In this document: piece after piece, positions 5,899 to 10,603 of the stretch
How positions within the stretch are numbered: position 1 is the stretch's first letter
Layout: each line of letters begins with the position of its first letter
Source of the DNA: a virus
Reading direction: 5' to 3' (one strand)
Virus record (IMG/VR): IMGVR_UViG_3300007541_009914
Span: 1-25,035 of that record
Length of the DNA: 25,035 nucleotides
The notes under the pieces: generated by a model
What the model saw: only the letters and a program-made list of their open reading frames with translations
Told to the model about the DNA's origin: nothing
The model's database searches: none
Translations under genes and position numbers: made by a program

Positions 5899-7542
5899 TT
5901 AGCTGAAGTTTGCAGGCGCAACACCTCCAGTAAGAACACCTAGATCACCAACAACGTTCATAGAAACGTATTGTGTTTCTGGGTGCCATCCAGCCTCAGT
6001 GATAGCATAGCGAGACTTCATTCCAATCTTAGGAGAGAAAGTACCCTCAGAGATTGTTTGAAGAGACTCAGCCATGATGTAAGGCATGAATTTAACTCCT
6101 GGTTCTTCGTCAGCACCTTTACGGCCGATCATGATACGTGAATCACCAAACTTCAAGTTAGGGTCAACATATACTTGAACTCCGTAAACTTTACCAGCTG
6201 GGTAAAGGTTACCGGCTACACCAGCCATATCTGTTGGAACCTGTGCGATTGAGTAACCAGCAACATCAGCAAGTGCAGAAGCAACTCGTCCGTTTGTTAC
6301 TAGGAATGTACCTGCACCGAAACGTCCTCTGTGGTAGATAAGGTTAGCAAGTTCAAGGATCTTGGTAACCAGACGTCTTTGTAATGTAGATACGTTCTCG
6401 AATCCACCTGCGCCAGTTGCGAGGTCTAGTGTAGTAAGACCTGTACCTTCAACTAGATCAATCTCGTCTGAGTGAGTATCAGCAAGCTGGAACACACGGT
6501 CAACAAGACGCTTGTTGATTGATTGTGCAAGGTCGTTAACTGCAACGTTCTCCAACATAGAGATTACGTCGTAGTTCCATACACGGTTAAGGTCTTGGAT
6601 CTGCTCAACAGTTGCAGAGATAGAAACTTGATCAGATTCTGCCTCAACAAACTTAGTGAACATTCTTAGACCCATTTGACGGAACCTAGAAACTTCTGAA
6701 TCCTCACGTCTCATGTTAGTAGGAAGCGAACCTGTAGTAGGTAGGTAAGGACCTTGGAAGTCTTGAGTTGCATAATTCGCATCAGAAACTCCAGAGAAAC
6801 CAGAAATATGGTTTTCAAGAGCAGATACTAGGCCAACCGCTCCAGTCGCAACTGCAGCTGAAGTGTCACCAGCAATGGTCAAGGTGTTTCCTTCCAATGC
6901 ACCGCTTAGAGTGTTTGTACCTGCATCAGATACCACTTTAAGGATAAGGAATCCGTCTACTCTTGAGTAACCCACTAAGTCTAGAACGAAGAGGCCGGCG
7001 CCGGCGCCTGAAACAGTTACTGTATCACCAGCGACCGCATTAGGGAAATCGTCTGCAGTAAGTCCTGTGACCTTAATCATGTAAGGATCACTGTCCGTGT
7101 CCGTGCGACCACCAGCATATACGTAATCCAAGTAAGGAAGGAATCCTACTGGAGAATCCATTGGTACAACAGGAACAAGGTCGAAACCGATTGTTTTAGC
7201 TGCAACTTGGATCGCTACTGGAAGTAGAGAAGGGAACTTGTCACCAGAACCAGAATCAGCGTAAGAATTCTTTGCTCCTGCTGAGAATGGAGTCTGATTT
7301 TGTAATGGAGCTGTTGGAGCTCCCATGTAACCGCCCAACGAGTTAGGAGTTTGGAAGAACAGACCTGGAGCAGTTGCTTGCTCAAAGATCGGTGCAGTAT
7401 TGTCAAAAATCGCGTGGTTGTGAGCGTACTCAGCCAACCAAGGAGTTTTTTCAAGGTTTGCTCCGTAACCTTCAAGTACAGGCTTCCAAGTGTTCACCAA
7501 CTTCTGGTCGCTCGAACGTTTAAAAACTTTAGTACGTGCCAT
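5899..7542 (-). CDS. 23: Major capsid protein (T4 gp23-like)
   Basis: 547 aa; T4 gp23 has 521. The N-terminal helix LVNTWKPVLEGYG (15-27) closely matches the T4 gp23 start region (LLNKWKPLLEG). LVPVVPMDSPVGFLPYLDYVYAG matches the gp23 block with the QPMNSPTG-type motif. A likely maturation site is IFE54/Q55-A-T, which fits the T4 gp21 rule (L/I-x-E); removal would shed a 54-residue propeptide, against 65 in T4. Residues about 158-250 form a Gly/Ala/Val/Thr-rich beta insertion, probably a surface domain. Base composition is less AT-rich than in neighbouring genes and AAC-type codons are favoured, as expected for a highly expressed protein. The leader has a run of twelve A and no Shine-Dalgarno sequence. 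It lies downstream of the protease-scaffold gene and ends at a strong terminator. Confidence 0.93.
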   Translation of the reverse strand: MARTKVFKRSSDQKLVNTWKPVLEGYGANLEKTPWLAEYAHNHAIFDNTAPIFEQATAPGLFFQTPNSLGGYMGAPTAPLQNQTPFSAGAKNSYADSGSGDKFPSLLPVAIQVAAKTIGFDLVPVVPMDSPVGFLPYLDYVYAGGRTDTDSDPYMIKVTGLTADDFPNAVAGDTVTVSGAGAGLFVLDLVGYSRVDGFLILKVVSDAGTNTLSGALEGNTLTIAGDTSAAVATGAVGLVSALENHISGFSGVSDANYATQDFQGPYLPTTGSLPTNMRREDSEVSRFRQMGLRMFTKFVEAESDQVSISATVEQIQDLNRVWNYDVISMLENVAVNDLAQSINKRLVDRVFQLADTHSDEIDLVEGTGLTTLDLATGAGGFENVSTLQRRLVTKILELANLIYHRGRFGAGTFLVTNGRVASALADVAGYSIAQVPTDMAGVAGNLYPAGKVYGVQVYVDPNLKFGDSRIMIGRKGADEEPGVKFMPYIMAESLQTISEGTFSPKIGMKSRYAITEAGWHPETQYVSMNVVGDLGVLTGGVAPANFS

Positions 7543-7571: not shown

Positions 7572-8819
7572 TTACTTACGATATGCCGCTTGGCGTTGCA
7601 ACATTTCTAAGTAGTTTTGAGAGTAACCTCTCTGCATCTCAACAACCTGATTAACAGGTACTAGGCCCTCTGTACTTTGGCTTTCGTTGAGTTTTTGCAT
7701 CTTATTATTGTGCTTTTCAATTTCTACTCTTTCCATGATACCTCTAAGATCTTGTTCATCCCAGAAAGATTTAACAGAATAAGGAGAGTTTAAGTTATAT
7801 AACTGCGATTTTGCAAATATTTTCGCTTTTTCGCTCTCATTCATCTCCGACCAAACTGCTTTGTATTCGTCAGGCATAAATTTAACTACGGTCGGAATAT
7901 TTGCGCTTTCATGATTGATCACTGATTCAATGATCGAAGTCACATCGTTTTCGTTAAACCATACCGACGCATTAAGTGCTTCAACCACAGCTTGTTTAGT
8001 CGATGATCCAAGGTTGAAGAACGCTTTTTGTTTAGCATTGCTCAATACCTTTAGGAATGGATATCTGCTTTCAAGAACTGCTTTTGAAGAAGAGTTAGTA
8101 ACTTCTGTTATTACTCGATCAACTTTAGAAACTAGTGCATCAATCGATGCGCTCTCGTCTAGCTTATTGATTCCATTCATTACGTTACGTTTTCCTCCTA
8201 CGACTGCTCCTTCATTTAGTGATTCAGCAATGTATTCAGTGTAACCAATGGTTTGTCCTAACTTTTCAGCGACATACTGAGAATATTCTCGGTTTTGATT
8301 AATGTTTTCAGAAAGATATTCTGCAAATTCGATTCCGCGATTTGCTCCTTCTGCAACATATTCAGTATATTGAAGACCTTTATCAAGTTCTTCTGCCAAA
8401 TAGTTTTGATATTTGATCGACTTAGTAAGATTCTCCTTTAAGTATTCAGCATAGTTAATAGATTGATCTAATTTTTCTGCTAAATAGTCCTGATGGCCAA
8501 TGCTTTGATTTAGTTTTTCTCCAATGTAATTAGAGTAGTCGATCGAGTTGTTAGTCGTCTCAGCAACGTGCTCTGAATATCTAATAGATTCATTGAGCTT
8601 GTTCGAAAGATAATCTGCGTAGTTAACGACTCCCTCCAACTGCTCAGCTAGATAATTAACAAATCCAACCAGTTTAGCTTGATCTACGCTATCGTTTGCG
8701 GTTTGAGCAGATTCAAGCAATTGCTTCTGTTGTCTCATTTCAGTTTTCATTTTAGTAAACTGATTTTTTAGAACTTCAGAATATTGGTCCATTTGCTCCT
8801 TAGTTACAAATTCGGCCAT
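7572..8819 (-). CDS. Probable nested, in-frame scaffold protein (gp22-like) from internal ATG
   Basis: Codon 246 of the protease-scaffold frame is ATG (8817-8819), preceded by CACAAAAAAATAATAACACG, an A-rich stretch like the leaders of real starts here, including the capsid gene. Starting there gives 415 aa holding exactly the coiled coil, the 14-residue repeats and the C-terminal domain, without the protease. Phage lambda makes its scaffold Nu3 in the same way from inside gene C. A separate start would let scaffold outnumber protease, as prohead assembly requires. Expression of the short form is inferred. Confidence 0.5.
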   Translation of the reverse strand: MAEFVTKEQMDQYSEVLKNQFTKMKTEMRQQKQLLESAQTANDSVDQAKLVGFVNYLAEQLEGVVNYADYLSNKLNESIRYSEHVAETTNNSIDYSNYIGEKLNQSIGHQDYLAEKLDQSINYAEYLKENLTKSIKYQNYLAEELDKGLQYTEYVAEGANRGIEFAEYLSENINQNREYSQYVAEKLGQTIGYTEYIAESLNEGAVVGGKRNVMNGINKLDESASIDALVSKVDRVITEVTNSSSKAVLESRYPFLKVLSNAKQKAFFNLGSSTKQAVVEALNASVWFNENDVTSIIESVINHESANIPTVVKFMPDEYKAVWSEMNESEKAKIFAKSQLYNLNSPYSVKSFWDEQDLRGIMERVEIEKHNNKMQKLNESQSTEGLVPVNQVVEMQRGYSQNYLEMLQRQAAYRK

Positions 8820-9554
8820 CGTGTTATTATTTTTTTGTGGTTTCGATGATTCGTTGAACGAAAGTCCTAACGTTTTATCAGATTTATTTATTCGATAAAT
8901 TTTTAAATTATCACCGTATCCTAAATTTTCGGAAATATCTTCTAGTCCCTGTTTTTCTATGACGGATGTTTCCTTTAGGTGATTATAACTTTCAGTGATA
9001 ATATCGAATTCACTCTTAAGCGATTCATTCACGGTTTTTCTTAAGATTGCTTCAGTAAATCCAGGTTCCCCGACAAGATCGTAAGTAAAGATGCGTTGTA
9101 ATTTTACCTTACCGCTTTCGTTTACCTGACCTGCGGCTCTTGAAGAGACTGAGAGATTTACTCCACCATCTAATAAAGCCTTTGCAATTTTTCCGTTAGG
9201 TGTGTTTTCAAGAATACGAACCTTAATGTTTACACGATCTCCTCCGTCGTATTCAAGTCCTTCGATGATGTGCGATGCACTCTTTAGAGTCACGTCAAAA
9301 TGTTGAGGGTGATCAAGATCACCTACTAGCTGACGCTTTTCAATTTTATCCTTTAGATAACTTAGGTGAGGAAGATATTCGTCTTTTTCGTAGATCCTGC
9401 GATTGTTATTCATTTGACCGAATACTGCGCAGACTCCCTCTAATACTGTTCCACTGGCACCCGATGATTTAACACTAAGTGCTTCATTGACATTTTCAAT
9501 GATTAGGACAGTATCTGCGCCAAGATTATCTACTGTGCTAGGTAAATTAGTCAA
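7572..9554 (-). CDS. 21: Prohead protease (gp21-like) fused to a repeat-rich scaffold (gp22-like)
   Basis: 660 aa from a TTG start, the only possible start since an in-frame TAG lies two codons upstream; a GATAAATAAT promoter is 16 nt before it. Residues about 33-175 resemble the T4 gp21 prohead protease: VLEGVCAVFGQMNNNRRIY, the catalytic His82 in GDLDHPQ, and the catalytic serine in LSVSSRAAG (136-142), followed by DLVGEPGFTEA. A charged linker (180-245) leads to a scaffold region with an internal methionine (246), a coiled coil (about 255-285), eleven 14-residue repeats (297-450) and a helical C-terminal domain. In T4 protease and scaffold are separate genes; a joined arrangement is common in other tailed phages. 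The protein would build the prohead core and later digest it and the capsid propeptide. Confidence 0.88.
   Translation of the reverse strand: MTNLPSTVDNLGADTVLIIENVNEALSVKSSGASGTVLEGVCAVFGQMNNNRRIYEKDEYLPHLSYLKDKIEKRQLVGDLDHPQHFDVTLKSASHIIEGLEYDGGDRVNIKVRILENTPNGKIAKALLDGGVNLSVSSRAAGQVNESGKVKLQRIFTYDLVGEPGFTEAILRKTVNESLKSEFDIITESYNHLKETSVIEKQGLEDISENLGYGDNLKIYRINKSDKTLGLSFNESSKPQKNNNTMAEFVTKEQMDQYSEVLKNQFTKMKTEMRQQKQLLESAQTANDSVDQAKLVGFVNYLAEQLEGVVNYADYLSNKLNESIRYSEHVAETTNNSIDYSNYIGEKLNQSIGHQDYLAEKLDQSINYAEYLKENLTKSIKYQNYLAEELDKGLQYTEYVAEGANRGIEFAEYLSENINQNREYSQYVAEKLGQTIGYTEYIAESLNEGAVVGGKRNVMNGINKLDESASIDALVSKVDRVITEVTNSSSKAVLESRYPFLKVLSNAKQKAFFNLGSSTKQAVVEALNASVWFNENDVTSIIESVINHESANIPTVVKFMPDEYKAVWSEMNESEKAKIFAKSQLYNLNSPYSVKSFWDEQDLRGIMERVEIEKHNNKMQKLNESQSTEGLVPVNQVVEMQRGYSQNYLEMLQRQAAYRK
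8205..8666 (-). repeat. Eleven tandem 42-nt (14-residue) repeats in the scaffold
   Basis: Residues 297-450 of the 660-aa protein divide without gaps into eleven 14-residue units with consensus [G/N/D/E]Y-x-x-Y-[L/V/I]-A-E-K-L-[N/D]-Q-S-I. Examples are DYSNYIGEKLNQSI, GHQDYLAEKLDQSI and EYSQYVAEKLGQTI. Fourteen residues equal two heptads, consistent with a regular helix or coiled coil. The repeats have diverged at DNA level, so this is an old, selected protein repeat. Confidence 0.9.
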
Positions 9555-9607: not shown

Positions 9608-10603
9608 TTATTCTAGTTCTAGCAAGTAATTTAAGAAATTATCTCGATCCTTTTTCTTAAGCTTAGTGATATCTGGAGTTTTTACCTTGAATTTTACTAT
9701 GTATGGCGCATGCGATCCATCCATTGTAATTAGACCAGAACTCTTTAACACAAATTTAAGATTGCTTATTGTCTCCGGAACATAGATCTGTGCATCATAT
9801 TTTTTATCGAAAATAGTTTCAATCCTAATTTTTTCTCCCTCTACCAATAATTTACTTAGTGGTATTTCAATCCACTGCACGACGGTCCGATCCTCTAATT
9901 GAATATTGTCGGGCATTTCAAAATTAATGGTCACATAAAGATCTCCAAATATGGGCATTTTTTCCCTGTCTCCAAAAATAGTCTCAAATTCATGAATATC
10001 TTCATTACCCAGGTTTGCAACCCTCACCTTTGCAGAATATCGATCTCCTTCCTTAACAATGGGTAAAAACTGGTCCCGTAATCTTACATTTATGGTAATT
10101 TTTCGAGTTTCCCTAGTCTTAATAAATTCTCTAGTATTGGAAAGTTCAATTTTGTCCCTATCGAAACTTACCTCTACTTCTCCTCCATTAAATGCCGTTA
10201 CAAAGCTCATGGTTACTCCATAATTAATGTCTAGGTGAGCCGTTTGTGGAGGAGTCGAGTGTGTTCTGCCTTGACTTCTTCTTCTTTCTTGATTAGAGCG
10301 TCCTCCTCCGAAATCTCCTTTGAAATTATTCACCCAATCCTCAAAACCAAACCCTGAGGCACGTCGGCCTGTTTTTTCTCCAGTTGGACCCTTTCTTGAG
10401 GAATCATAGGCTTTTCTTTTTTCGATCGTGCTTAGCGTATCGTATGCCTCGGCCACTTCCTTAAAGCGTTCAGCCGCTTCTTCGTCACCTGCATTTTTAT
10501 CTGGGTGCCATTGCATCGCTTCTTTACGATATGCCTTTTTTATCTCTTCCTGGGTGGCATTCTGCCCACTTCCTAAAATTTTGTAATAATCTTTCAAGTG
10601 CAA
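9608..10603 (-). CDS. dnaJ: DnaJ-like co-chaperone (J domain plus C-terminal substrate-binding domains, no zinc finger)
   Basis: 331 aa from TTG, with an in-frame TAG just upstream; a second TTG two codons later would give the canonical MKDYYKILG beginning and may be the true start. Residues 3-67 are a complete J domain with the HPD motif at 33-35, which stimulates the ATPase of a DnaK (Hsp70). A short Gly/Arg/Ser-rich linker (about 70-115) replaces the zinc-finger region, as in CbpA-type J proteins. The rest (about 120-310) is beta-rich, with DLYVTINF and a following VQWIEIPLSKLLVEGEKIRI block like the DnaJ C-terminal domain. It lies directly upstream of the prohead genes, suggesting a role in folding capsid or scaffold with host DnaK (inference). 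Confidence 0.88.
   Translation of the reverse strand: MHLKDYYKILGSGQNATQEEIKKAYRKEAMQWHPDKNAGDEEAAERFKEVAEAYDTLSTIEKRKAYDSSRKGPTGEKTGRRASGFGFEDWVNNFKGDFGGGRSNQERRRSQGRTHSTPPQTAHLDINYGVTMSFVTAFNGGEVEVSFDRDKIELSNTREFIKTRETRKITINVRLRDQFLPIVKEGDRYSAKVRVANLGNEDIHEFETIFGDREKMPIFGDLYVTINFEMPDNIQLEDRTVVQWIEIPLSKLLVEGEKIRIETIFDKKYDAQIYVPETISNLKFVLKSSGLITMDGSHAPYIVKFKVKTPDITKLKKKDRDNFLNYLLELE

Follow-up and report, generated by a model that had tools for sequence, protein, structure and literature searches.

Gene layout and the protease-scaffold fusion

The window analysed here is a stretch of 25,035 bases of a virus record, with the head genes on the minus strand. The gene at 7572 to 9554 (minus strand, stop included; TTG start as listed) encodes a 660-aa protease-scaffold fusion with Pfam and PHROG matches, whose residues we number from the TTG at 9554 as residue 1. 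The scaffold is fused behind the protease, and the gene for a gp23-type major capsid protein comes next (5899 to 7542, minus strand; PF07068, Gp23, E 3e-36, 126.1 bits against a cut-off of 24.4); the corresponding order in T4 is 21-22-23. The original prediction, that the protease is encoded in the same reading frame as the scaffold, is borne out by this fusion and its Peptidase_S77/S80 match. Directly upstream, at 9608-10603 on the minus strand, lies a DnaJ-type phage gene.

The protease domain spans residues 24-172 (9039 to 9485, minus strand), as placed by alignment of an AF2 model with T4 gp21 (5jbl). Matches to PF03420 (Peptidase_S77; 39.2 bits against a cut-off of 27) and PF20034 (S80; 31.5 against 23.4 bits) fall within residues 33-193, and the 660-aa protein also matches PHROG 207, head maturation protease. 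Superposition of the model on 5jbl_B gave a Z of 17.2 and 2.1 Å over 140 aligned residues (24-164 of the model); T4 gp21 was the best entry in the fold search, and the next reached Z 7.3. Herpesvirus proteases appeared in this list at Z 7.3 and below, as expected of distant gp21 relatives. The candidate catalytic residues are His-82 (9309 to 9311, minus strand) and Ser-138 (9141 to 9143, minus strand), the latter in an SSRAAG motif aligned with the ASRG motif of T4 gp21. Both are invariant in A3 and lie within matching stretches of the 5jbl alignment, where the solved 5jbl chain has no His at the place of His-82. Judged by its model and family matches, the encoded protease is gp21-like in fold and family.

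D-I-S-E209 (8928 to 8939, minus strand) is a candidate site for release of the protease; all 15 aligned clade members retain its [LI]-x-E motif (ISE209), in a linker that is otherwise variable. The presumed scaffold part comprises 415 aa (7572 to 8819, minus strand) and begins at an internal ATG, Met-246 (8817 to 8819, minus strand), the candidate start of a free scaffold. A Met just before the scaffold's conserved VTK-like motif was present in 51 of 51 representatives, always as ATG, and the 25 nt upstream averaged 53% A, compared with 38% for whole genes. This conserved ATG with its A-rich leader suggests that a free scaffold may be made besides the fusion. The C-terminal scaffold part (7575 to 8210, minus strand) contains nine further [LIVM]-x-E motifs, with a mean Glu conservation of 0.98 in the 15-member clade alignment.

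The 14-residue array and its relatives

Eleven tandem 14-residue units occupy residues 295-448 (8211 to 8672, minus strand), as found by unit detection and in relatives; the array originally placed at 8205-8666 is the same one, shifted by two residues. Tandem Repeats Finder reported no DNA array over this region, and the repeat is visible in the protein only. The unit consensus is [S/G/N]-I-x-Y-x-[E/N/D]-Y-[L/I/V]-[A/S/G]-E-x-L-[N/D]-x, with Glu at unit position 10 (residue 304, then 332-444 in steps of 14). Where Y-[L/I/V]-x-E had been predicted at a fixed place in the units, the seven strict [L/I]-x-E motifs (YLAE, YIGE, YLAE, YLKE, YLAE, YLSE, YIAE) and three V-A-E are present, but unit 3 reads HVAE rather than YVAE. 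Unit 2 (YLSN) indeed lacks Glu at this place, yet it has a motif of its own four residues on, L-N-E322, at unit position 14 (8589 to 8597, minus strand). Unit 11 holds a second motif, L-N-E448, at its end (8211 to 8219, minus strand).

AF2 modelled the repeats as a single helix (290-432) at low confidence, with pLDDT in the block mostly 46-65, and therefore no contacts were read from it. If the helix is straight, position 10 would be exposed: on a helical wheel drawn with 100 degrees per residue, the angle from the hydrophobic face is 162 degrees for position 10 and -157 degrees for position 14. A sequence search of the PDB with the repeats gave nothing useful (one match, E 0.095). Pfam and PHROG matches to the repeats at relaxed thresholds were scattered and mostly below cut-off, and they were taken as compositional.

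The repeat region contains nine strict [LI]-x-E motifs (3.6 expected; 6 of 2000 composition shuffles reach nine) and 12 [LIVM]-x-E (4.5 expected; 0 of 2000 shuffles reach 12). The reversed E-x-[LI] is as common inside the repeats (12, with 3.5 expected), so a directional test is uninformative there and the motif count alone is weak evidence; as proof of protease sites it was rejected. Outside the repeats, the scaffolds of 51 genomes showed [LI]-x-E at 1.77-fold and the reversed motif at 1.13-fold, with 6 against 2.5 expected in the window scaffold. The control values were 1.13 and 1.11 (reversed) for 27 other window genes, and 1.11 and 1.18 (reversed) for 273 other ORFs of the family loci. The protease domain has a motif excess of its own (2.46 vs 1.33 reversed).

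T4-like scaffolds provided a yardstick. gp21 is described in the excerpted text of PMC9026906 and PMC9958956 as degrading T4 gp22 to small peptides, with the motif L/I-X-E. All eight T4-like gp22 scaffolds compared were enriched in [LI]-x-E (12-19 observed vs 5.1-6.8 expected, z 3.3-6.0; E-x-[LI] z -1.3 to 1.9), at a mean spacing of 13.2-20.4 residues. Three gp21 proteins were enriched as well, and gp21 pentamers degrade each other according to the same excerpt of PMC9958956. Comparing profiles of 10 and 8 sequences with hhalign revealed no homology to gp22 (probability 0.4%). A motif roughly every 15 residues is thus usual for T4 scaffolds, and the novelty here is its regular phasing in a tandem array.

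Similar proteins were found by tblastn in 954 phage records; in only two of them does a single place account for 80% or more of the query. A search with the repeats alone matched six records, LR756500-LR756504 and LR745206, of 462-735 kb; we call these relatives Mahaphage-type, a label of our own that does not come from a tree. In the excerpted text of PMC7162821, the four longest complete genomes measure 634, 636, 642 and 735 kb, the Mahaphage clade takes in every one of that study's largest genomes, and the five above 634 kb are predicted to infect Bacteroidetes. In IMG/VR the array has at least 544 relatives, of which the best 80 were kept. In the set of loci compared, 113 of 117 repeat-bearing ORFs contained the protease.

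Small proteins that lack the protease can carry the 14-residue unit too: L034:2261-2884 and L036 (207 aa), L035:2436-2687 (minus strand, 83 aa) and L139:847-1077 (76 aa). Their settings differ: one has collagen-like stretches near a gene for an ssDNA-binding protein, one lies beside DnaJ and a head-tail adaptor gene, and one has a hydrophobic C-terminus. Another DnaJ-type protein (L035:2829-3911) adjoins the repeat protein in LR745206. In 2 of the 22 records searched, a separate ORF carried strong extra repeat copies (E below 1e-10). A separate octapeptide, DPYGEE[D/N]W, is encoded by varying codons. Its exact back-translated matches number 59 in LR756501.1, the 735-kb phage, for example in L034:2261-2884, L139, L140 and L142-L161; none occurred in the four other records searched, and the reversed pattern gave none. 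When 45 of them were read in frame, 23 ended at most 15 residues from the stop and 6 lay within 20 residues of the first Met. With 71 stretches carrying it in IMG/VR, the octapeptide looks, by its sequence, like a short tag common to many proteins.

For the conservation test, units were detected without using positions 8 and 10. Among 39 representatives, Mahaphage-type and others, Glu10 was the most informative unit position (146 of 152 distinct units); among 12 from the window clade it ranked third (97 of 114 distinct units). The idea that this Glu might be kept better than other surface positions in related phages therefore fared well, as Glu10 outranks the other polar positions 3, 6, 11, 13 and 14. 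In the alignment of 15 clade members, Glu within [LIVM]-x-E and other Glu differed little inside the repeats (0.90 vs 0.87). The protease domain shows the same bias more strongly (0.92 at 11 sites vs 0.44 at 5), so motif conservation is not specific, and the comparison of in-motif with out-of-motif Glu was rejected as specific evidence.

All 12 window-clade representatives have 11 units; the 39 others range from 10 to 14, with 12 units in 30 of them. Single units keep their own features across the window clade, and together with the constant number this indicates that units are not in quick turnover there. Three loci (L025, L182, L204) have an extra 7 residues, the length of half a unit, inserted within the array. 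In L002 the repeat is kept but Glu10 is present in just 5 of its 10 units. A related protease protein in L007 (Prevotella phage Lak-A1) has no 14-residue repeats and carries an acidic low-complexity stretch in the corresponding part. Two further ideas were dropped. That Asp never replaces Glu10 was true in 266 distinct units and fell with more (Asp 3 and Gln 9 of 107 replacements); coupling of Tyr7 with Glu10 was not needed, since 21 of 21 distinct units without Tyr or His at position 7 keep Glu10.

Motif relocation and the capsid site

The fate of lost sites was followed in 52 distinct scaffolds, each 380 residues or longer, obtained from 105 loci by way of 94 proteins; the rest of the loci had no recognised protein or gave short or duplicate ones. 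In units 3-10, Glu10 was missing in 32 of 416 unit copies, and [LIVM]-x-E appeared at positions 12-14 in 20 of these 32, compared with 5 of the 384 copies that have Glu10. Unit 5 alone contributed 13 of 13 without Glu10 vs 4 of 39 with it, and after its removal the counts were 7 of 19 vs 1 of 345 (Fisher p 2.5e-9, ignoring relatedness). Relatedness was addressed by comparing independent pairs on a tree from which the repeat columns had been left out. Averaged over random pairings, 7.6 pairs changed in the same direction, 0 in the opposite one and 10.4 showed no difference; 8 of 8 such pairs would correspond to p 0.008, and 7 of 7 to p 0.016.

Relocated motifs include YLGKKLNE in unit 4, YLSSKLNE (as in L020) and YLGQKVNE in unit 5, YLGKELDE in unit 7, YLSKSINE in unit 9, and YLANKLSE, YIATKLGE (as in L180) and YISNKLTE in unit 10. 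It is at position 14 that the unit offers an aliphatic residue two places earlier. Losses in units 3-10 went unreplaced in 12 of 32 cases. Unit 1 had lost Glu10 in 23 of 52 scaffolds with none replaced, and in unit 2 a replacement was present in 23 of 49 and absent in 26 of 49. On these sequences, lost sites in the window clade are often replaced by a new [LIVM]-x-E within the same unit.

The capsid motif named in the original prediction, I-F-E54 (7381 to 7389, minus strand), is present and is the likely maturation site of the capsid protein. From 107 capsid ORFs, 105 had the bounding motifs and yielded 77 distinct stretches; in all 77 the conserved propeptide ends in [LIVM]-x-E, for the most part I-N-E in Mahaphage types. 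In window-clade capsids I-F-D stands at the aligned place, closely followed by a new [ILV]-F-E, with Val at the first motif position in L012 and L019; the exception, L028, has M-F-E and I-N-E instead. Going by the alignment, the window-clade capsid site again looks like a moved site. The T4 capsid protein loses a 65-residue N-terminal region (excerpted text of PMC9958956) and its sequence reads L-T-E65 at that place; by analogy with T4, [LIVM]-x-E would be the cleavage site in these capsid proteins.

A proposed perforated scaffold, its rivals and known systems

With a probability of roughly 0.6, we regard the 415-residue part as the head scaffold of a huge T4-like phage, its array forming a long helix with a gp21-type motif in nearly every unit. 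We infer the scaffold role from gene order and the fusion, and the motif as the specificity of this protease is likewise a presumption. The scaffold, made as part of the protease fusion and probably also separately by starting at the internal ATG, would build the prohead core, around which the capsid protein would assemble. The enclosed protease would then turn active, free itself by a cut in the linker (candidate ISE209), remove the capsid propeptide at IFE54 and cut the scaffold helix after the Glu of [L/I/V]-x-E, about once per unit. The resulting short peptides would exit before DNA entry.

The perforated scaffold proposed in the original prediction is supported in part, by the conservation of Glu10, the motif relocation, the gp21 fold and the capsid site; conservation of the motif taken alone is unspecific. 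It makes a simple prediction for the emptying of a very large prohead, namely a ladder of named peptides. Computed MH+ values for peptides ending at a motif Glu are 1590.69 for TTNNSIDYSNYIGE, 1615.81 for KLNQSIGHQDYLAE, 1684.89 for NLTKSIKYQNYLAE, 1555.74 for GANRGIEFAEYLSE and 1190.58 for SIRYSEHVAE. More tentatively, and with the odds somewhat against it, the 14-residue period could be a digestion register, in which selection keeps the motif in nearly every unit, movable by four residues, and the core would come apart entirely as short peptides of uniform size; small Mahaphage-type proteins that carry these units may in this way join the core and be cut.

The Glu could instead be structural, pairing charges on the helix surface at i+4 or with a neighbouring helix, such that Glu14 offsets the loss of Glu10 and the motif is incidental. 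Positions 10 and 14 share a polar face as i,i+4 neighbours, and electrostatic exchange could therefore give part of the relocation pattern; Lys is the most frequent residue at position 14 when Glu10 is present, and Glu10 persists in the repeat units of other small proteins (L034, L035) that are not known as head proteins. We consider this account less likely, but a serious rival. The acid gained at position 14 on loss of Glu10 is Glu, with Asp14 in 0 of 32 losses, although Asp is common at positions 3, 6 and 13. Such losses bring no increase in acid at 3 or 13 and hardly any at 6 and 11, Glu10 and Glu14 coexist in 28 of 52 copies of unit 11, and loss of the acid at position 6 had no partner effect (Fisher p 1.0, ignoring relatedness; units 3-10, 52 scaffolds).

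Relocation within units is left unexplained if the array serves chiefly as a rod for assembly or a ruler of length, whose unit number sets the core size and whose removal uses few motifs, those in the linker and the C-terminal part. The steady unit number (11 throughout the window clade, mostly 12 elsewhere) and the nine well-conserved motifs of the C-terminal part fit such a ruler, which is compatible with the perforated scaffold; as the main function of the array we hold it to be improbable. Least probable is that relocation reflects recombinational copying of unit 2 (YLSxKLNE) into other units in place of selection on the motif. Unit 2 often ends K-L-N-E and is the most similar other unit over positions 7-14 in several relocated units, but the 24 nt of these positions share just 42-79% identity with unit 2 in their own genome (21 of 23 cases with DNA recovered), and the relocated residues vary (LSE, LGE, LTE, LDE, INE, VNE). 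With DNA identity this low, gene conversion from unit 2 is not supported.

If the perforated-scaffold reading holds, the array is a candidate scaffold for the largest known phages, those with records of 462-735 kb. The motif-relocation pattern would offer a sequence-only route to protease substrates, which could be tried on other uncultivated phages. In titles and abstract openings of the open-access literature, we found no description of a repeat-built scaffold with a protease motif in each unit.

A protease fused to a scaffold that is also made alone from an internal start is the arrangement of lambda C/Nu3 and of herpesvirus UL26/UL26.5; in our case the conserved ATG and its A-rich leader are what points to the internal start. 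To our knowledge, neither lambda C/Nu3 nor UL26/UL26.5 has a repeat array. The phiKZ gp175 and SPN3US gp245 (S80) proteases, with their multi-site propeptides, cut after Glu in a short motif, as is predicted from sequence for the window protease. Redundant sites in phiKZ and SPN3US are thought to shrink the fragments, according to the excerpts of PMC5694885 and PMC10052503. The SPN3US motif is A-x-E, unlike that of the window, and the excerpted accounts of these phages do not describe a scaffold built of repeats; a gp22 counterpart is called unconfirmed for giant phages in the excerpt of PMC5694885.

The closest parallel is T4 gp21/gp22/gp23, with which the window shares the protease-scaffold-capsid order, the gp21 fold, a gp23-type capsid protein, [LIVM]-x-E at the capsid maturation site and about one [LI]-x-E per 15 residues of scaffold. 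Unlike in T4, protease and scaffold form one reading frame here, and the scaffold carries a regular 14-residue array and has no detectable sequence similarity to gp22. The proposed pathway is a regular variant of the known T4 process and not a new process; what is new is the array, the fusion with its conserved internal ATG and the relocating motif.
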